A DNA stretch of 64,000 nucleotides. Source: Buchnera aphidicola (Artemisaphis artemisicola). GTDB taxonomy: Bacteria; Pseudomonadota; Gammaproteobacteria; Enterobacterales; Enterobacteriaceae. The notes below the pieces were generated by a model. That model had not been told where the DNA came from. It saw only the letters and a list, made by a program, of their open reading frames with translations, and did no database searches. The translations under genes were made by a program, and so were the position numbers. Numbering within the stretch: position 1 is the first letter of the stretch; each line of letters starts with the position of its first letter. The stretch is from NCBI RefSeq assembly GCF_005082365.1, contig NZ_CP034900.1, positions 434,001-498,000 of the forward strand, written 5' to 3'. Shown one piece after another: positions 1,106-59,515 of the stretch.

Positions 1106-3760
1106 ATGAACAAGACAACAAATCAAATACGTCAAGATTTTTTAAATTTCTTTAAAGAAAAAGGACATATAATTATTCCAAGCAGTTCTTTAGTTCCATA
1201 TAATGATACTACATTATTATTTACTAATGCAGGAATGAATCAATTTAAAGAAATTTTTTTAGGTGAAAAACAAAGAGACTATCCTCGAGTTGTAACCGTT
1301 CAAAGATGTTTAAGAACTGGAGGAAAACATAACGATTTAGAAAATGTAGGATACACTTCAAAACATCATACATTTTTTGAAATGCTTGGTAATTTTAGTT
1401 TTAATGATTATTTTAAAAAAGAAGCAATTGAATACGCTTGGGAATTATTAACATCAAAAAAATGGTTTAATATTCCAAAAAATAAATTATGGATTTCAGT
1501 TTATGAAAATGATACTGAAACATATAGAATATGGCATAATATTATCAAAATACCTGCTGAACGTATCATCAAAATAGGTGATAAAAATAATTCTCAATAT
1601 GATTCAGAAAACTTTTGGCAAATGGGTGATAGTGGTCCATGTGGACCATGTACTGAAATATTTTATGATTATGGTAGTACAGATATAAAAAGTTCAATAG
1701 ATTTTTTAAAGAACGAAAACAATCGTTTTGTTGAAATTTGGAATATTGTTTTTATAGAATTTAACCGTATTTCACAAACAAAAATAATTTCTTTAAAAAA
1801 CAAATCCATTGATACAGGAATGGGATTAGAAAGAATATCTGCTGTTTTACAAAACGTTTACTCTAATTATGATATTGATATATTTCAAGAGTTAATAAAA
1901 TCTATATTTGCATCTAGTACTATCAAAAATTTAAATCATATTTCTTTGAAAGTTATAGCTGATCATATTAGATCTTGTGTATATATTATTGCTGATAACA
2001 TTTTTCCATCAAATGAACATCGAGGTTATGTTTTAAGAAGAATAATTAGAAGAGCATTGAGACACGGTCATAAAATTGGTATTAAAGAGAATTTTTTATA
2101 TAAATTAGTACCTAATGTTATTAAAATAATGGGAAAAAGTGCTGATATTTTAAAATTAAAAAAAGATAAAATAGAAGAAATTTTAAAAGCAGAAGAAATA
2201 CAATTTTCTAATACTCTTAATAAAGGTCTTAAAATATTAAATTCTGAAATTCAAAAAACATATAATAATGTACTTTCTGGAAAAACTGTATTTTATCTAT
2301 ATGATACTTTTGGATTTCCAGTCGATTTAACAGAAGATGTTTGCCGTGAAAAAAAAATAAAAATAGACTACACTGGATACAAAGTAGCTAAAGAAGAACA
2401 AAAAAAAAGATCTAATCTTAAAAATAAATTTTATAAGAATTATAATAATAATATTTTTATTAATGATGAATGTATATTTCAAGGTTATAAAAAAAATAAA
2501 ACAAAAGCATTGGTAAAATATATTTTTATAAATAATCAATTTGTTTCAAAAATTTCCAAAAATGAAAATGGCATCATTTTTCTTAATACTACACCATTTT
2601 ATGGAGAATCAGGAGGACAAAAAGGAGATATAGGGAAACTATATTATAAAAAATCATGTTTTATAGTAGAAGATACAAAAAAATATAAAAAAACAACTGG
2701 ACATATTGGAAAACTAATTTCAGGAGAAATTAAGATCAATGATTATGTTTTCAGTGAAATTGATGAAAATTATAGACATTCTATTGAATTAAATCATTCA
2801 GCTACACATTTACTACACGCTGCATTACGAAATGTTTTAGGTAATAATGTTTATCAAAAAGGATCATTAGTAACAAATGCATACTTAAGATTTGATTTTT
2901 CTTGTTCTAAGTTTATTACAATGTCTGAAATACAAAAAATTGAACATATTGTTAATATTCAGATTCGTAAAAATATTTTAATCAAGATTGAAAACTTAGA
3001 TTTAGAAAAAGCTAAATTAAAAAATGCAATAGCTTTATTTGATCATCAATATAGTTCTATTGTTCGAGTTGTATCTATGAATAATTTTTCGATAGAACTT
3101 TGTGGAGGCACACATACTAAAAGAACTGGTGATATTGGATTTTTTAAAATTATTTCTCAATCTAGTATATCATCAGGAATTAAAAGAATTGAAGCTGTAA
3201 CTGGAGAAAACGCGATAAATTATTTACATAAAAAAGATAGTGATATACAAAATATCTCTTTTATATTGAATTGCAATCAGTCTAATATTAAAGAAAAAAT
3301 AAATCAAATATTAATAAAAACAAAAAATTTAGAAAAAAAAATAAAGCAATTACAAAAACAAGAAAAAAAATACTATATAAAACAATTATTGGAAAATATT
3401 AAAAATATACAAGAAATAAAATTTCTATCACATATATTTTACAATTATGAACATATATTGTTAAAAACAATAGTTGATGAATTAAAAACTCAAATAGATA
3501 ATACTATTATTATACTAGTAAATGTTATTGATAATCGTTTTACTATTCTTGTTCAAGTTTCAAAAAAAGTAACTAATTGGATTGCAGCAAAAAAAATTAT
3601 GGAAATTATTATAGATCAAACAAATGGAAAAGGAGGAGGAAAAAAAGAAATGGCTGAAGGAGGAGGAGTTTATACAATAAAATTGCCTATAATTTTAAAA
3701 AACATTCAATCATGGATTAATATAGAGTTAGAAAAAAAGAAAAATAATAAATGTATATAA
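1106..3760 (+). CDS. alaS: Alanyl-tRNA synthetase
   Basis: This 884-residue protein charges tRNA-Ala (E. coli enzyme 876 residues). The class II catalytic core is visible from the N-terminus, including HHTFFEMLGNFSF at 87-99 and DTGMGLERIS. The editing domain has its metal-binding residues at H564, H568, C666 and H670 (HSATH and CGGTH), the same numbering as E. coli. The C-terminal glycine-rich GKGGG segment of the C-Ala domain is present near 835-840. The enzyme therefore looks fully functional for both charging and proofreading. It is transcribed in the same direction as csrA, 164 bp downstream, as in E. coli. Confidence 0.98.
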   Translation: MNKTTNQIRQDFLNFFKEKGHIIIPSSSLVPYNDTTLLFTNAGMNQFKEIFLGEKQRDYPRVVTVQRCLRTGGKHNDLENVGYTSKHHTFFEMLGNFSFNDYFKKEAIEYAWELLTSKKWFNIPKNKLWISVYENDTETYRIWHNIIKIPAERIIKIGDKNNSQYDSENFWQMGDSGPCGPCTEIFYDYGSTDIKSSIDFLKNENNRFVEIWNIVFIEFNRISQTKIISLKNKSIDTGMGLERISAVLQNVYSNYDIDIFQELIKSIFASSTIKNLNHISLKVIADHIRSCVYIIADNIFPSNEHRGYVLRRIIRRALRHGHKIGIKENFLYKLVPNVIKIMGKSADILKLKKDKIEEILKAEEIQFSNTLNKGLKILNSEIQKTYNNVLSGKTVFYLYDTFGFPVDLTEDVCREKKIKIDYTGYKVAKEEQKKRSNLKNKFYKNYNNNIFINDECIFQGYKKNKTKALVKYIFINNQFVSKISKNENGIIFLNTTPFYGESGGQKGDIGKLYYKKSCFIVEDTKKYKKTTGHIGKLISGEIKINDYVFSEIDENYRHSIELNHSATHLLHAALRNVLGNNVYQKGSLVTNAYLRFDFSCSKFITMSEIQKIEHIVNIQIRKNILIKIENLDLEKAKLKNAIALFDHQYSSIVRVVSMNNFSIELCGGTHTKRTGDIGFFKIISQSSISSGIKRIEAVTGENAINYLHKKDSDIQNISFILNCNQSNIKEKINQILIKTKNLEKKIKQLQKQEKKYYIKQLLENIKNIQEIKFLSHIFYNYEHILLKTIVDELKTQIDNTIIILVNVIDNRFTILVQVSKKVTNWIAAKKIMEIIIDQTNGKGGGKKEMAEGGGVYTIKLPIILKNIQSWINIELEKKKNNKCI

Positions 3761-15915: not shown

Positions 15916-15966
15916 ATTAAAAAAATGTTTTAAAAAAATAAAATTTTATAATTAATCAGGAAAATT

Positions 15967-16625
15967 ATGTATTATCCAATTAACGAAATGTTTCAAACAA
16001 TACAAGGTGAAGGATATTATACTGGAACTCCAGCAATCTTTGTTCGATTACAAGGCTGTCCTGTTCATTGTCAATGGTGTGATACTAAATATACATGGCA
16101 ATGCTTAAATATAAACCAAATTTCTTATGAGGAATTAATAAATAAAAAAATATCAAATCAAAAATGGAGTTCTATTCATATTACAAAAATAATTTCAAAT
16201 ATAAAAAAAAAAAATGGACTGCTAGACATGTAGTAATTACAGGAGGAGAGCCATGTATGCATGATTTATCATGTCTTACTAAAGAATTAGAAAAACAAGG
16301 ATATCAATGTCAAATAGAAACAAGTGGCACACAATCAATTAAGTGCTCTTTAAAAACTTGGGTGACTGTGTCTCCTAAAAAAAATCAAAATACATTACAT
16401 CAAGCAATATTGCGTTCTAATGAAATTAAATATCCAGTTTTAAATAAAGAAGATTTATTGTATTTAGAAGAAATTTTGATGACTGTAAAAGATAAAAAAA
16501 AACATCTTATTTCTTTACAACCTATAAGTCAAGATGAAAAATCTTTAAAAATTTGTATAGAAACATGTACAATAAAAAATTGGCGTCTTTCAATACAACT
16601 TCATAAATATCTTTCAATAAAATAA
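15967..16625 (+). CDS. queE: 7-carboxy-7-deazaguanine synthase QueE, split at an A11 tract
   Basis: QueE is a radical SAM enzyme in queuosine/preQ0 synthesis (E. coli 223 residues). The first frame gives [20 protein letters not shown] and the 4Fe-4S motif C-x3-C-x2-C in [12 protein letters not shown], then stops at 16231-16233 after an A11 run (16203-16213). The next frame carries the rest from [13 protein letters not shown] to [12 protein letters not shown], ending at 16625. One extra A makes a 219-residue protein whose junction reads [12 protein letters not shown], matching E. coli GYTARHVV. All catalytic features are conserved, so either slippage rescues expression or the tract was undercalled. 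It converges on queD. Confidence 0.88.
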
Positions 16626-44680: not shown

Positions 44681-45135
44681 ATGAAAAATATTGTTATAAA
44701 CCTTCAAATTTGCTGTGAAAATATTCAATATATACCAAAAATATCACATTTTAAAAAATGGATATCCAAAGTTTTGTTTAAAAAAAAAATATTAATATAA
44801 TAACAATCCGTATTGTAGATGAATCAGAAATTCAAAACTTAAACTATATTTATAGAGGAATAAATAAACCTACAAATATTTTATCATTTTCTATTAATAA
44901 GTTTATTGCCAGTAATCAAAAATTATTAGGAGATTTAGTTTTGTGTAAAAATATAATAGAAAAAGAATCTATAAAATATAATAAAATATTACAATCATAT
45001 TGGGCTCATGTAACTATACACGGAATATTGCATTTATTAGGATACGATCATAAAAATGATAAAGAAGCAAAAGTTATGGAACAAATAGAAAATAAAATCA
45101 TGATATCATTAAATTATCAAAAACCATATATGTAA
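44681..45135 (+). CDS. ybeY: Endoribonuclease YbeY, split at an A10 tract
   Basis: YbeY is a zinc endoribonuclease for 16S rRNA 3'-end maturation (E. coli 155 residues). From ATG 44681 the frame reads MKNIVINLQICCENI and stops at 44797-44799, just after an A10 tract (44780-44789). The next frame holds TIRIVDESEI, YRGINKPTNILSFS, LLGDLVLC and the zinc motif HGILHLLGYDH up to 45135. One extra A gives 151 residues with junction FKKKNINIITIRIVD, matching E. coli EVTIRVVD. All catalytic histidines are kept, so the gene looks functional apart from the tract. Confidence 0.88.
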
Positions 45136-48767: not shown

Positions 48768-49763
48768 ATGAAAAATATACACTTATACGAGCTTAAACAA
48801 AATCTAATTAAAAAATTAAATTTTTTTTATATATTATTAGGAGAGAATTTTATTTTATTAAAAAATAGTCAAGAATTAATATTAAATATTGCATATCAAA
48901 AAGGATTTTCAGAAATAGTTACAATAGATATAGAAAAAAATAAAGATTGGGAAAAAGTTATTATATTCTATAAACAAAAAGATTTATTTTTTAAAAAAAC
49001 TTCTCTAATTGTTAATTTTCTTATTAAAAAATTAGATATTATTTTAATTAAAAATATTAATAAAATATCTTCTTTACTTAATTTAGATGTCTTGATTATA
49101 TTAAAACTTAATCATTTGTCTGATTTTTTTCAAAACAATCAATTACTCAGAAAATTAAAAAGTTATAACAGCATTATATCTTGTTTTACACCATATAATT
49201 TAGATTTTATTAATTGGATAAAATATGAAATTCAAGAAAAAAATATAAATATAGAAGATAAAGGATTATTTTTATTATATAAATATTATGATGGAAATAC
49301 TTTATTTATATATAATATTTTAAAAATACTTTTAATTACATGGCCTAATACTTATATTACAGAAGACAAAATAAAAAAAATTATTATTGATTTTTTTAAT
49401 TTTAGTCCGTTACATTGGATTAATGCTATATTTCAAGGTCAAACAAAAAAAGCAATTTATATACTAAATATATTTTGTAAGCAAAAATATAACATTCTTA
49501 TTTTAATACGAAGTCTACAAAAAGACTTGTTAATATTAATTTATATGAAACGTGAAAAAAAAACAGATATTAATATATTTTTATTAGCTAATAAGATTTG
49601 GAAAAAAAGATATAAATTTTTTATAAACGGATTTCAAAAAAATAATTATAATAGTTTATATAAAGCTATTCAAATTCTTGTTAAAATAGAAATAAATATT
49701 AAAAAAAAATATAATAATTCTGTTTGGGATCAATTGAAAGAATTAACTTTAATGCTGTCTTAA
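48768..49763 (+). CDS. holA: DNA polymerase III delta subunit
   Basis: The 331-residue protein (E. coli 343) is the clamp-opening subunit of the clamp loader. Sequence conservation is weak, but size, position between leuS and nadD, and the start MKNIHLYELKQNLIKKL (E. coli MIRLYPEQLRAQLNEGL) support the call. SPLHWINAIFQGQTKKAIYIL matches the delta family region near 215. It is very rich in Ile, Lys and Asn, showing base-composition drift. Confidence 0.85.
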   Translation: MKNIHLYELKQNLIKKLNFFYILLGENFILLKNSQELILNIAYQKGFSEIVTIDIEKNKDWEKVIIFYKQKDLFFKKTSLIVNFLIKKLDIILIKNINKISSLLNLDVLIILKLNHLSDFFQNNQLLRKLKSYNSIISCFTPYNLDFINWIKYEIQEKNINIEDKGLFLLYKYYDGNTLFIYNILKILLITWPNTYITEDKIKKIIIDFFNFSPLHWINAIFQGQTKKAIYILNIFCKQKYNILILIRSLQKDLLILIYMKREKKTDINIFLLANKIWKKRYKFFINGFQKNNYNSLYKAIQILVKIEINIKKKYNNSVWDQLKELTLMLS

Positions 49764-49792: not shown

Positions 49793-50442
49793 ATGAAAAA
49801 ATTATATGCAATATTTGGTGGCAATTTTGATCCTATTCATTATGGTCATCTTTGTATGGCTCAAAATTTAGCAAATGAAATATGTATAGAAAAAATAATA
49901 TTTCTACCAAATAATAATCCTCCTCATAGAGAAAAAAGCAAAACATCTATAATAGATAGATTAAAAATGATTAAGATGGCTATTAACAATAATGCTTTAT
50001 TTAAAATAAGTTATTTAGAAACGAAAAAAATTAAATGTTTTTATACTATAGACACTTTGAAAAAAATTAGAAAAATAATAGGTTATTCAAGACCTTTATG
50101 TTTTATAATAGGAGAAGATAACTTGCAAAATTTTAATCTCTGGAAAGACTGGGAAAATATTTTATCATATTCACATTTGCTTGTTTGCCCTAGAACTCAT
50201 AAAAAAAAAGTAACTATAAATTAATAAATTGGATCAATACTCATATAATTAAAGATTATCATTTACTTCATAAAAAATCATGTGGATTAATTTTTTTTTC
50301 CAATACAGAAATGATTAATATTTCTTCAAGTAAAATAAGAAAAAATTATTCTCAAGGAAAAAGTTCTTACGGACTTTTACCGTCAAATATTAATACATAT
50401 ATTATATTAAAAAAAATATATCATACAAATCAAGATCCTTAG
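49793..50442 (+). CDS. nadD: Nicotinate-nucleotide adenylyltransferase NadD, split at an A9 tract
   Basis: NadD makes NaAD from nicotinate mononucleotide and ATP (E. coli 213 residues). The first frame starts MKMKKLYAIFGGNFDPIHYGHL with the nucleotidyltransferase motif, keeps FLPNNNPPH and FIIGEDNL, and stops at 50222-50224 after LLVCPRTHKKK. An A9 tract is at 50201-50209. The next frame continues SNYKLINWINTHIIKDY and ends with NISSSKIRKNYSQGKS, the ISxxxIR motif needed for ATP binding, stopping at 50442. One extra A gives 216 residues. The first frame alone would lack that motif and probably be inactive. Confidence 0.87.
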
Positions 50443-50508: not shown

Positions 50509-50742
50509 ATGAAAAAAAATTTTATTACATTAAATTTAATTGGTCTACGATGTCCTGAACCAATTATGATGATTAGAAAAACAATTCGCAATATGAAAGA
50601 TAATCAAAAAATATTAGTTTTATCAGATGATCTTTCAACAAAAAGGGACATCCCAAATTTTTGTTTTTTCATGAAACATACACTATTAAAACTTGAAATA
50701 AAAATTAAACCATATCGTTTTTTATTAAAAAAAGGATTATAA
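50509..50742 (+). CDS. tusA: Sulfur carrier protein TusA
   Basis: The 77-residue protein (E. coli 81) carries sulfur from IscS towards 2-thiouridine in tRNA. The active Cys is C15 in [17 protein letters not shown], the family signature. The C-terminal PYRFLLKKG matches E. coli PYRYLIRKG. It converges on asd, with a nested hairpin in the 115-bp spacer between them. Confidence 0.95.
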
Positions 50743-52969: not shown

Positions 52970-54148
52970 ATGAATATAACAAAAATGACTGATTTAAATA
53001 TCACAGGAAAAAGAGTTTTAATAAGAAGTGATTTAAACGTACCCATAAAAAATGGAATAATTCAATCTGAAGCTAGAATATTAGCAGCTCTTCCTACTAT
53101 TCAATTAGCAATTGAAAGAAAGGCAAAAGTCATAATTATGTCTCATTTAGGAAGACCAAAAGAAGGATGTAATACAAAAAAAAATTCTTTATTACCTATA
53201 TTTGAATATTTAAAAAAGAAATTAAATAACACAAAAATATATTTTGCTAAAGATTATTTAAATAATTTTGAAATAAATGCAGGAGAAGTTGTAATTTTAG
53301 AAAATGTTCGTTTTAACATGGGAGAACTAAACAATAGTGATGAATTATCCAAAAAGTATTCTAATCTTTGCGATATATTTGTAATGGATGCATTTGGAAG
53401 CGCACATAGAATTCAATCATCTACTTATGGTATTGGTAAATTTGTTAAAATTGCATGTGCTGGACCGCTTTTAATAAATGAAATCAATGCGTTAACAAAA
53501 GCACTAGAAAAACCAAAACGTCCTATGGTTGCAATAATAGGAGGTTCAAAAGTATCAACTAAATTTAATGTACTGCATAAATTATCTACAATTGCAGATA
53601 CAATTATAGTTGGAGGCGGTATAGCAAATACTTTTTTAGCTATAGATCATAAAATAGGCAAATCTTTATATGAATCAAATTTTATATTAGAAGCTAAAAA
53701 ATTACGTGAACAATTTAATATATTCATTCCAATTGATTCTAGAGTAGGAAAAAATTTTTCTAAAACCGAAAAATCTACAATAAAATTACCTTCTAATATC
53801 AAAGAAGACGAAGAAATTATGGATTTTGGAGATCAATCAATTAAAATAGCAGTTGATATTCTTAAAAAATCTAAAACAATTGTATGGAATGGACCAGTAG
53901 GAGTATTTGAATTTCCAAATTTTCGAAAAGGTACAGAAATGATTGCAAAAACAATTGCACATAGTCAAGCATTTTCTATAGCTGGAGGAGGAGATACACT
54001 ATCAGTTATCGATATGTTTAATATAAAAAATAATATATCTTACATTTCTACTGGAGGAGGAGCATTCTTAGAATTTATGGAAGGGAAAAAATTACCTGCA
54101 ATATATATGTTAGAAGAAAATTTTAAAAAAAATAACTTAATTAACTAA
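52970..54148 (+). CDS. pgk: Phosphoglycerate kinase
   Basis: The 392-residue enzyme (E. coli 387) makes ATP from 1,3-bisphosphoglycerate. Signature segments are [15 protein letters not shown] near 15-29, [31 protein letters not shown] and the nucleotide loop [19 protein letters not shown] precedes the ATG. fbaA follows after 32 bases, the E. coli pgk-fbaA-mscS order. Confidence 0.98.
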
Positions 54149-55383: not shown

Positions 55384-56229
55384 ATGGATGAATTAAATGT
55401 AGTAAATGATATTAATCATGCAGGAAATTGGCTTGTACGTAATCAAGAATTACTTCTTGGATATATCGTAAATTTAACATCTGCTATTATTATTTTAATT
55501 GCAGGAATGTTTATAGCTAAAATAATATCTAATGGTGTTAATCAGATATTGATCACCCGTCATATTGACGCTACTATTGCTGGTTTTCTTTCTACGTTAA
55601 TAAAATATATTATTATTACCTTTGCATTAATTGCTGCATTAGGTCGACTTGGAGTTCAAACAACATCAATTATTGCCATATTAGGAGCCGCAGGAATGGC
55701 TATAGGTTTAGCTCTACAAGGTTCTTTATCTAATTTTGCAGCAGGTGTATTATTAGTTACTCTAAGACCATTAAAAACAGGAGAATATGTTGATTTAGAA
55801 AGTGTTTCAGGGACTGTTTTAAATATTCATATTTTTCATACAATACTACGTACTTTAGATGGTAAAATTGTAGTCATACCAAATAATAAAATTATTTCAG
55901 GTAATATTATTAATTATTCAAGAGAGCCAGCACGTCGTAATGAATTTATTATAAGTGTATCATATGATAGTGATATTGATTTAGTTATTAAAATTTTAAG
56001 AAAAGTAATAGAAAACGAAGAAAGAGTAATAAAAGATAGAGACATCATTATTGGATTAAGCGAACTAGCTCCATCTTCTTTAAATTTTATAGTACGTTGT
56101 TGGAGTAATAATCATGATTTAAACGCAGTATACTGGGATTTAATGGCTAAATTCAAAAAAGCATTAGATAAAAATAATATTAATATTCCTTATCCTCAAA
56201 TAGATGTACATCTTTATAAAAAAAAATAA
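55384..56229 (+). CDS. mscS: Small-conductance mechanosensitive channel MscS
   Basis: The 281-residue inner-membrane channel (E. coli 286) opens on osmotic down-shock. Three membrane helices are seen, with the pore-lining TM3 at [23 protein letters not shown] and its Gly/Ala packing pattern. The cytoplasmic vestibule domain follows ([36 protein letters not shown]). It follows fbaA as in E. coli. Confidence 0.97.
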
Positions 56230-56293
56230 TATTAAAAAATATTCAATAAATTTTTTATACTAATCTATTTATTTAATTAAATATCAGGTGTTT

Positions 56294-59200
56294 ATGTTTA
56301 CAGTTTATCAATCAAATAAACTCACTTCACTACTATCAAAAGTATGTCAAATAATTGAAAAAAAACCTCTGTCTAATATTTTTGAAAAAGAAATTTTTAT
56401 TCATGATAATAAAATATTATTTCAATATCTAAATATATTTATTGCCAATAAAATAGGAATTTCTACTAATATAAAATTATACAATCCTCATGATTTTATA
56501 TGGCAATTATTTAAGAAATTTTTATCTAAAAAAAATTTAAAAAATACATTTAATCATTCTATTATGACTTGGAATATTATGAATATTTTAAATGTAGAAG
56601 ATTTTTCTGAATGTTGTTATAAAACAAAAAATAACATGAATAATTTTAAATTTTCATTACTAATGGCAAAAATGTTTGAAGAATATATTTTATATTGTCC
56701 TCATTGGATTAACTCATGGGAAAATAAAAAAAACATATCAACTATTAATATTCACGAAAAATGGCAAATGAAATTATGGATAAAAATAATAGATCAAAAT
56801 AGAAAAAATTGTCAAAATAATGATCATTATTCTAATTTATTTTATAATTTTAAAAAATTAATAAAAGAAAAAAAAATAAAAAAAAAAGATTTTCCTCGTC
56901 GTTGTTTTATTCTGTCTTCTTTCTCTTTAAATCCTTCTTACATAAAAATTTTTGAAAAAATTAGTCCATATATTAATATTTATTTTTTATATATTACACC
57001 GTCTAAAAAAAATAGATTAGAACTATCTGAAAAAAATACATCAAAAAATATATTAATAGAATTATGGGGGCAACATGAAAAACTTTACGATACATATATT
57101 ATACAATCTAATAAAAAAATAATAAGTTGTTTTAAAAAAAATAATAAAAAAAATTTACTAAATAATATTAAAAATAATTTTTCTTTAAACCAAGCGTGTG
57201 AAAATTATAAAATAAAAAAAAAAATATTACATGTTCAAGATGATTCTATTTCTATAAACATTTGTTTGAATAAAAAAAATGAGATCGAAGTATTATATGA
57301 AAAATTATTAGAACTATTTTCAAAAAATCCTAAAATCAAACCAAACGATATAGTTGTTACTTGTTTATCAATTGATGATTACATTCCTTATATCAATTTA
57401 ATATTTAAAGATTTAGATCAAAATAAACAAATTCCTTTTTTTATTTCTAAAAAATTTTCAAAGAAAACAAAAATTATATTATCTACTTTTAACAAATTAT
57501 TAAATTTACCTAACAGTCGTTTTAAAAATGAAGAAATATTAGAATTACTTAATATTCCTGAAATAGCAAAAAATTTTAATATTTCAGAAGAAGAAATCAA
57601 TATTTTATCTTGTTGGATAGAAGAAGCAAACATTAGATGGGGAATTGACAAAGTACATAAAGAGAGTTTTTTGTTTCCTAAAAATCATCAAAATACTTGG
57701 ATGCACGGAATAGATAAATTAATTTTAAGTTACGCTACAAATAATACAAAAAAATTTTGGAAAAACATTGTATCATGCAGTTTTGTTAATGGTTCTAGAG
57801 TAAACTTATTAGAAAAGTTTATTAATTTTATAAACATACTTAAAAAGTGGAAAAAAAAGATAGCAAAATCACAAAATCTAATTTATTGGCGTTCATTGTC
57901 TAAAAATCTTATTAGTGATATTTTTTATGTTAGTGAAAAAATAGAAGAACCTATTAAGATAATTCAAAAAAATTGGACAAAAATGATTGATGATGGTCTT
58001 TTATCTAATTATTCAGATAAAATTTCAATTAATATATTGAAAAAAAAATTTATTTATACATATAACAAATATATAAAAAATCAAAAAATTTTACCAGGTG
58101 CAATAAATTTTTGCCATCCTAAGTCTATTTGTTATCTCCCATTTAAAGTTATATGTATTATTGGGTTTGATTATAATAGCACTTTAAATAAAAATAACAT
58201 GGATGAAGTTAATTTATTAAATCAATATCCATTAATTGGTAATTTAAATATTTATCAGAAATACTCTTATTTATTTCTTCAAAGTATATCTTGTGCTGAA
58301 GAATTGTTTTATATTAGTTATGTTGGATTTTCTATAAAAGATCAGAACAAATTATATCCTTCCACTTTAGTTGATCAATTGTTAAATTATATATCATTAA
58401 ATTTTTACTTAATAGGAAATAAAAATTTACCTTTTAAAGAAAATAAAAAAAAAATAATTAATAATTTATGCATAAAATACAAAAAAGATTACTCGTATAA
58501 AAAAATTAACATAAATAATTTTACAAAAAAAAATTTACAGAATAAATCAAAAAAAATAAACGAAAAAATATATAACAAAAGCTTTTTCAATAAAATTGTT
58601 TATGCAAAAAATACTTTTAGTAAAATTAATTTAATAGATTTAATAAATTTTTGGAAACATCCTATACGTTATTTTGTTAAAAAAACATTACAAATAGAAT
58701 TTAATCCTAAAAAAGAACAAGTAATTCCAACAGAACCTTTTTTAGTTAATCAACTAGATAATTTTAAAATAAGAAATATTTTATTAAATAAGATAATACA
58801 TAATGAACACATAAAAAAATTATATCAATATTTTATGCTTTCTGGAAAGTTACCTTATGGTTTTTTTGGAACATTATTCTGGAAAAAAAATATTCTAGAA
58901 ATAGAATCTATTGCAAAAAAAGTTATTGAACATAGACATTTTACAAAAGAAAAAAAAGTTAATTTCAAAATACAAAAATATCAAATTAATGGTATTTTGA
59001 ATGAAGTACAAAGTACTGGTTTGTTACGTTGGAAATCTAATTTAATCAATCATAAAGATCGTATTTCTTTATGGCTAGAACATTTAGTATATTCTATATT
59101 AGGAGGCTACGGAGAAAGTAAAATTATAGGCAATAAAAATCAAATATGGTCTTTCTCTCCTTTAAAACCTGATGTTGCATCTAAATATTTTTTAGAATAT

Positions 59201-59515
59201 ATTCAAGGATATATTACAGGAATTCAAAAACCTCTTTTATTAATAAAATCAGCTGCATGTTGGCTTGATCATATTTATGATAAAAAAAATTTTTGTATTA
59301 AAGATAATAATAATATAAAAATAACAGGATACAAAAAATTAATAGAAACATGGATGGGAAACAACTATATTACAGGAGAAAAAGAAGATTTTTATATTAA
59401 AATAATTATTAAAAAATTAGATAAAAAAAATATAAACAAAATTTGTGCAATATCAAAAAAATGGCTATTACCATTACTAAAAAACAAAAAAATAATAAAA
59501 AATGAATACTTATAA
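56294..59515 (+). CDS. recC: Exodeoxyribonuclease V gamma subunit RecC
   Basis: RecC is the scaffold of RecBCD that splits the duplex and recognises Chi (E. coli 1122 residues; 1073 here). The start ATG at 56294 gives MFTVYQSNKLTSLL, aligned to E. coli MLRVYHSNRLDVLE. A GTG six bases earlier is less likely. Conserved pieces are LPNSRFKNEEILELLNIPEIA, RWGIDKVHKESF, NLIDLINFWKHPIRYFVKKTLQIEF and LWLEHLVYSILGGYGESK. The middle is very Lys/Asn/Ile-rich. It overlaps recB by 14 bases. ptrA, between recC and recB in E. coli, is absent. Confidence 0.96.
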   Translation: MFTVYQSNKLTSLLSKVCQIIEKKPLSNIFEKEIFIHDNKILFQYLNIFIANKIGISTNIKLYNPHDFIWQLFKKFLSKKNLKNTFNHSIMTWNIMNILNVEDFSECCYKTKNNMNNFKFSLLMAKMFEEYILYCPHWINSWENKKNISTINIHEKWQMKLWIKIIDQNRKNCQNNDHYSNLFYNFKKLIKEKKIKKKDFPRRCFILSSFSLNPSYIKIFEKISPYINIYFLYITPSKKNRLELSEKNTSKNILIELWGQHEKLYDTYIIQSNKKIISCFKKNNKKNLLNNIKNNFSLNQACENYKIKKKILHVQDDSISINICLNKKNEIEVLYEKLLELFSKNPKIKPNDIVVTCLSIDDYIPYINLIFKDLDQNKQIPFFISKKFSKKTKIILSTFNKLLNLPNSRFKNEEILELLNIPEIAKNFNISEEEINILSCWIEEANIRWGIDKVHKESFLFPKNHQNTWMHGIDKLILSYATNNTKKFWKNIVSCSFVNGSRVNLLEKFINFINILKKWKKKIAKSQNLIYWRSLSKNLISDIFYVSEKIEEPIKIIQKNWTKMIDDGLLSNYSDKISINILKKKFIYTYNKYIKNQKILPGAINFCHPKSICYLPFKVICIIGFDYNSTLNKNNMDEVNLLNQYPLIGNLNIYQKYSYLFLQSISCAEELFYISYVGFSIKDQNKLYPSTLVDQLLNYISLNFYLIGNKNLPFKENKKKIINNLCIKYKKDYSYKKININNFTKKNLQNKSKKINEKIYNKSFFNKIVYAKNTFSKINLIDLINFWKHPIRYFVKKTLQIEFNPKKEQVIPTEPFLVNQLDNFKIRNILLNKIIHNEHIKKLYQYFMLSGKLPYGFFGTLFWKKNILEIESIAKKVIEHRHFTKEKKVNFKIQKYQINGILNEVQSTGLLRWKSNLINHKDRISLWLEHLVYSILGGYGESKIIGNKNQIWSFSPLKPDVASKYFLEYIQGYITGIQKPLLLIKSAACWLDHIYDKKNFCIKDNNNIKITGYKKLIETWMGNNYITGEKEDFYIKIIIKKLDKKNINKICAISKKWLLPLLKNKKIIKNEYL

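Follow-up and report, generated by a model that had tools for sequence, protein, structure and literature searches.

Frame breaks in Buchnera nadD recur at runs of nine or more adenines and are probably tolerated through slippage

Introduction

In the Buchnera aphidicola of the aphid Artemisaphis artemisicola, the reading frame of nadD is broken at a run of nine adenines (A9), and the C-terminal part of the gene lies in another frame. Does such a gene still supply its enzyme, and by what route, or is it being lost? The answer bears on how symbiont genomes are read. Automatic annotation could label the nadD genes of 15 of 35 Buchnera genomes as pseudogenes and infer that there is no NAD synthesis, an inference that is contradicted because the pathway is kept in 35 genomes and was lost together in one. 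On a published list of the core essential genes of the Enterobacteriaceae, nadD is entered along with nadE and nadK. The rescue of poly(A) frameshifts by polymerase slippage in Buchnera and Blochmannia is attributed to Tamas et al. (2008, PNAS). In a literature search covering Buchnera nadD, slippage, poly-A and homopolymers, the nadD break was unreported among the matches listed, Tamas et al. (2008) and Wernegreen et al. (2010) being outside that scope. Here we describe the locus in a window of 64,000 nucleotides, the whole stretch of DNA that was analysed, and compare it with its counterparts in other Buchnera genomes.

Structure of the nadD locus

The features of the nadD region, in window coordinates, are:

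48768–49763, plus strand: holA, the upstream neighbour of nadD (TIGR01128)
49793–50224, plus strand: zero-frame part of nadD, 143 codons from the ATG at 49793, containing the nucleotide-binding core (sequence reading and model matches)
50024–50030, plus strand: equivalent of "site 1", which is broken in nine other Buchnera; here an A7 run, in frame
50201–50209, plus strand: the A9 run, "site 2", where the frame changes (sequence reading)
50203–50442, plus strand: downstream part of nadD in the next frame, 76 codons past the A9 run (sequence and model matches)
50320–50361, plus strand: ISSSKIRKNYSQGK, a C-terminal NadD motif, in the downstream frame (sequence reading)
50509–50742, plus strand: tusA, the downstream neighbour of nadD (NF001423)

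The zero frame ends at the TAA at 50222–50224, with 12 nt between the A9 run and the first base of the stop; the last base of this TAA lies 15 nt after the run, which is the distance given in the preliminary description. The downstream frame opens at 50203, within the A9 run, runs to 50439 and stops at the TAG at 50440–50442. The zero-frame part matched positions 1–132 of TIGR00482 (1.1e-43), and the downstream part (50212–50439) matched positions 148–217 of the NadD model NF000839 (1.3e-11) and 144–194 of TIGR00482 (2.6e-9). NF000839 was matched in order by both parts, at positions 5–140 and then 148–217 of its 219, and its cut-off of 187 bits was reached by neither part alone. When Pfam was searched, the zero-frame part matched PF01467 and the downstream part gave no match. 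An intact Buchnera NadD orthologue could be aligned over its full length with the E. coli NadD structure 1k4k, the ISSSKIRKNYSQGK region included. Sequence reading and the NadD model matches thus confirm that the gene is nadD with its frame broken at A9, and the C-terminal motif was correctly assigned to the next frame. The A run had also been called the shortest of four. The window scan for split frames at A8 or longer runs found three, namely A12 in queE, A10 in ybeY and A9 in nadD, and of these the A9 is the shortest.

The source genome (G000) has 641 kb in two contigs, the small one (C2) being a Buchnera leucine plasmid, with a best identity of 83%. A paralogue or a transferred replacement of nadD in this genome was considered and rejected, because the sole other match was weak (C1:609425, E 4.3e-5, within a 275-aa open frame) and a comparable weak second match is present in 33 of the 36 Buchnera genomes. 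We infer that the C1:609425 match is another adenylyltransferase.

Distribution of nadD breaks among Buchnera genomes

Thirty-six Buchnera genomes were searched with TIGR00482, and nadD was found in 35 of them, G018 alone being without a match. The gene was broken once in 15 of the 36, always at a run of A9 to A12, and was in one frame in 20; G013 is counted among the 20, yet an N run follows its A12 and leaves its frame uncertain. The breaks fell at two places. Six genomes (G000, G003, G009, G022, G026 and G034) were broken at site 2, and nine (G005, G012, G015, G017, G021, G025, G028, G031 and G033) at site 1, which is about 60 codons farther upstream. When these were placed on a FastTree phylogeny built from ten neighbouring proteins (3762 columns, 35 genomes), the site-1 breaks comprised G005 and one clade in which all members but the in-frame G014 were broken, and the site-2 breaks comprised the pair G000 and G034, the trio G026, G009 and G022, and the single genome G003. 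The 15 broken genomes do not represent 15 events, because parsimony gives three changes between broken and intact per site. By the same reckoning site 1 underwent seven frame changes, and the sign of the break was opposite between the sister genomes G017 and G033 and between G015 and G028. The sister species G034 has an A9, a flank and a break identical to those of G000, from which it is separated on the genome tree by 0.23 amino-acid substitutions per site; a chance read error at the A9 is unlikely given this identity. In a family-wide search of 119 genomes, 98 of which had a match, the only two-piece nadD genes among the matches listed, at an E limit of 1e-6, were those of G000 and of G063, an assembly that is 49% complete.

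Run length and gene specificity

To compare runs of different lengths, all nadD runs were scored. No break was seen at A7 (0/56) or A8 (0/61), and the gene was broken at 3/17 A9, 5/10 A10, 6/10 A11 and 1/3 A12 runs, giving 0/117 for A7–A8 versus 15/40 for A9 and longer. Selection against A runs becomes evident at a length of nine in a large fraction of bacterial genomes, although the length varies (Baranov 2005). The A9 is no weak outlier, in that nadD breaks also start at nine. The preliminary description expected slippage to be least efficient at this run. It is plausible that the A9 slips less than A10–A12 runs, because insertions in Buchnera transcripts are reported to increase exponentially as runs lengthen. 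Mutation alone would account for part of the length threshold, as longer runs mutate more.

Ten neighbouring genes served as controls, being the open frames of at least 90 aa in G000, with the split ybeY and tusA absent and a gene of 1075 aa kept apart. Across 35 assemblies these ten genes contained 291 runs of A9 or longer with no break at a run, in a scan that would miss breaks leaving a very short piece. There were two breaks in all in the ten genes, neither lying within 45 nt of an A or T run of at least 7. With both of these counted, the difference from the 15/40 of nadD gave a Fisher p of 1.3e-13, and when the 1075-aa gene was added to the controls the comparison was 15/40 versus 13/482 (p 2.2e-11). 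Apparent single breaks with missing residues were noted in L076 (G028) and L052 (G003), orthologues of window 52970–54148 and 55384–56229; the G028 and G003 breaks, which are not near A/T runs, are possibly assembly errors or BLAST artefacts.

These counts bear on whether the nadD breaks are undercalls of long A runs in sequencing or assembly. Undercalling would yield the sign of all six site-2 breaks, and ybeY and the 1075-aa gene, from the same stretches, also show frequent breaks at A runs. The same assemblies, however, gave 0 breaks at 291 runs in the ten neighbours against 15/40 in nadD, and two sister species carry the identical A9 break. Because the ten neighbours are unbroken at their runs, both read errors and a general failure to purge breaks are disfavoured, and we regard undercalling as very improbable.

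Coding capacity and selection downstream of the break

In each of the 15 broken genomes the downstream frame continued without interruption to the normal stop, over 73–76 codons for the site-2 breaks and 128–131 codons for the site-1 breaks. In Buchnera genomes with an intact nadD, its wrong frames past site 1 contained 481 stops in 5220 codons (9.2%), and the chance of an open wrong frame is about 9e-4 for 73 codons and 4e-6 for 128. The openness of the downstream frame exceeds chance and is repeated in 15 of 15 broken genomes, all of which also showed the C-terminal ISSxxIR motif. In five of the 15 (G000, G003, G022, G031 and G034) the downstream frame opens only within the run and the zero-frame stop lies no more than 12 nt past it, so in these genomes the frame change must occur at the run.

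Separate translation of the two halves was also considered, and is unlikely. The downstream frame lacks an ATG in 11 of the 15 broken genomes, and in the other four the first ATG is at codon 33 or later. A GTG or TTG occurs in eight, at codon 16 or later and always past conserved residues, and four genomes (G003, G009, G012 and G028) have no ATG, GTG or TTG downstream at all.

Rates of amino-acid change were measured relative to the genome tree. Past site 2 the medians were 2.00 for broken (n=15) and 2.16 for intact genomes (n=20; p=0.38), and the site-2 genomes alone gave 2.10 (p=0.88). Between the two sites the values were 1.00 for broken (n=9) versus 0.90 for intact genomes (n=20; p=0.98). 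When terminal branches past site 2 were pooled, the value was 2.50 in site-2 genomes, 2.11 in site-1 genomes and 2.20 in the intact group. The alignments and rate tests did not include G018, because its stretch missed the nadD region. Downstream dN/dS was 0.17–0.49 in seven broken pairs, 0.17–0.40 in three intact pairs and 0.41 in one mixed pair, all of these 11 hand-picked pairs being below 0.5 by a measure that is crude in AT-rich genomes. As judged from these comparisons, the downstream part of nadD appears to be under purifying selection and to evolve no faster than in intact relatives. The statement in the preliminary description that the A9 tract removes the C-terminus therefore needs correction: open frames, rates and dN/dS indicate that the C-terminus is still made and is under normal selection.

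Retention of the NAD pathway

If nadD were a young pseudogene in the course of being lost, NAD or a precursor would have to be taken from the aphid. Homopolymer frame breaks have been put forward as a possible first step of gene erosion in symbionts (Williams and Wernegreen 2010), and G018 does lack the whole pathway. In G018 there was no nadE match over the cut-off, pncB was fragmented, and a nadD relic lay in pieces between holA and tusA (L100, about 2531–3023). This genome has apparently lost NAD synthesis from nicotinate. G018 thus shows what true loss of nadD looks like in Buchnera, and the 15 broken genomes look unlike it; as a true nadD pseudogene it serves as a negative control. In all 15, G000 included, nadE is a single open frame of 268 aa and pncB is open at full length. 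Among the 36 genomes, pncB was open at full length in 35, and a nadE match above the cut-off was likewise obtained in 35, with the proviso that the match crossed one or two stops in 10 of the 35 and that the frame was checked for the 15 nadD-broken genomes. With the rest of the pathway full length, no second break or stop in any of the 15 downstream parts, no increase in rate, and a break that G000 and G034 have in common across 0.23 amino-acid substitutions per site, we consider it very unlikely that nadD is a decaying gene in these genomes.

Probable slippage at the A run

The explanation that we judge probable, from comparison of sequences, is that nadD is expressed and needed, that its frame is broken within a slippery A run, and that polymerase slippage gives enough in-frame mRNA. 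The preliminary description's proposal of slippage as the natural rescue of nadD is in our judgement right. RNA polymerase would slip on the A9, producing a pool of mRNAs of mixed run lengths, among which those with one extra A (a net +1) would be read through to full-length NadD, while the remainder would yield a 143-aa fragment that lacks the C-terminal motif. With the enzyme supplied in sufficient amount by slippage, it would make little difference whether an nadD run of A9 or longer is in frame, and it is this near neutrality that would let breaks arise, persist, flip sign and revert among aphid symbionts. We infer slippage as the decoding step, occurring mainly in transcription and with a sufficient yield.

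Published work bears on this explanation in both directions. In Buchnera transcripts 151 of 157 insertions were in homopolymers, and they became more frequent in longer runs (Traverse and Ochman 2017), and 12–50% of transcripts are reported as corrected in other frameshifted genes of aphid and ant symbionts (Atkins et al. 2016); the source of the latter figure, reference 244 of that review, is taken to be Tamas et al. (2008). Another paper cites 30% full-length transcripts for genes with poly(A) frameshifts. Against the slippage account, Traverse and Ochman (2017) state that they detected no frame-restoring transcription error, and Wigglesworthia may not slip, its A/T runs being equally frequent in coding and noncoding DNA (Baranov 2005).

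A different route to the same product would be a ribosomal -1 frameshift on the A run, in which tRNA-Lys re-pairs on AAA AAA and the frames are joined in a faithful A9 mRNA. A heptamer of A's would suffice for such a shift, and site 2 has one. The breaks that need one more base, and that a -1 ribosomal shift could mend, are 6/6 at site 2, 5/9 at site 1 and 11/11 in the 1075-aa gene. This excess fits insertion-prone slippage, -1 ribosomal shifting, deletion-biased mutation and undercalled runs alike. The other four of the nine site-1 breaks, all at A11, are of the opposite sign. These four, together with the sign switches between sister genomes, speak against a ribosomal shift in one direction as the shared mechanism, whereas RNA polymerase slippage can serve both signs. 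A -1 ribosomal shift alone also does not predict an onset at nine A's. RNA structure downstream of the run, as a stimulator of frameshifting, was rejected after the six site-2 genomes were folded: nothing beyond chance was found, and no stable or shared structure past the run (z -1.18 to +1.03). On balance ribosomal frameshifting is an unlikely explanation for nadD.

Rather than being programmed, the nadD break seems to be tolerated under the slippage explanation, judging by its two places, several run lengths, both signs, reversions and absence of a shared RNA structure past site 2. A programmed element is hard to reconcile with breaks at two positions, at runs from A9 to A12, in a gene that is in frame in 20 of 36 genomes. 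What was found instead is what marks slippage genes, namely a single break in a homopolymer, the rest of the gene open in G000 and 14 other genomes, and purifying selection downstream. With two sites, both signs and several lengths, nadD offers natural replicates for asking how much slippage is needed to ignore a frame.

Comparison with known slippage genes

The genes of Tamas et al. (2008) are like nadD in that they come from the same kind of bacterium and have one break in a long A run in a gene that is otherwise intact. A review that covers such cases names, in its available text, cell-wall genes and a histidine gene and not nadD, and the case for nadD is comparative only. The homopolymer frameshifts of Blochmannia (Wernegreen et al. 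2010, MBE) resemble the nadD breaks in being inherited across species without decay; unlike them, the nadD break occurs at two places and its sign flips between sisters. In nadD it would seem to be the long run that persists, and not one frame state. Blochmannia ytfM is a reported case of a gene broken independently at more than one place, and such breaks can persist between species without detectable decay (Williams and Wernegreen 2010).

The "pseudo pseudogenes" of Baranov et al. (2005) are like nadD in being restorable at a run of nine, eight being classed as non-slippery and nine as slippery. The available text of that paper does not mention Buchnera, and the insect symbiont that it names is Wigglesworthia, suggested to be non-slipping. 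The dnaX gene of Thermus thermophilus, like nadD, has an A9 run, at which transcriptional slippage leads to two products, and at high yield, with 50% of the product being short (Baranov 2005). The two genes differ in that the genomic frame of dnaX gives the long product, whereas in nadD the long product needs slippage. To the published slippage genes of Buchnera and Blochmannia, nadD would add a well replicated case.

Other genes broken at A runs

The other genes of the window with split frames are:

15952–16625, plus strand: queE, split at an A12 run (16203–16214), both parts matching TIGR04322 in order
44682–45134, plus strand: ybeY, split at an A10 run (44780–44789) (sequence comparison)

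For ybeY, exactly A10 and a broken frame were found in 22 of 35 genomes, the frame of the C-terminal part starting at the run except in G020, where it opens 25 nt earlier. Twenty of the 22 were classed as requiring +1, and no upstream ATG frame was found for the other two, G029 and G030. In the remainder of the 35, two need -1, eight are in one frame and three are unclassified; none has A11. A search with the ybeY model gave open frames of 117–129 aa in 25 of 36 genomes, 153–170 aa in ten and 136 aa in G018. The constancy of an out-of-frame A10 in ybeY, set beside the wandering runs of nadD, suggests selection for the run itself, at least from the sequences compared. Shared descent alone may explain part of this constancy, and the A10 is possibly a programmed frameshift that is old in Buchnera. 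In the literature ybeY is listed as frameshifted in Blochmannia turneri (PeerJ 2015), and it stands on the same list of core essential Enterobacteriaceae genes as nadD.

A broader proposal is that A-run slippage is a standing mechanism of expression in Buchnera, acting on nadD, ybeY, queE and the 1075-aa gene, with partial correction giving a useful low dose. We think this improbable.

The 1075-aa gene, which we take to be RecC-like, occupies 56288–59515 of the window. It is in one frame here, and its orthologues (L049–L083) are broken in 11 of 35 genomes; these breaks are all at A10 or longer runs, one of them at an A20, and all need +1.
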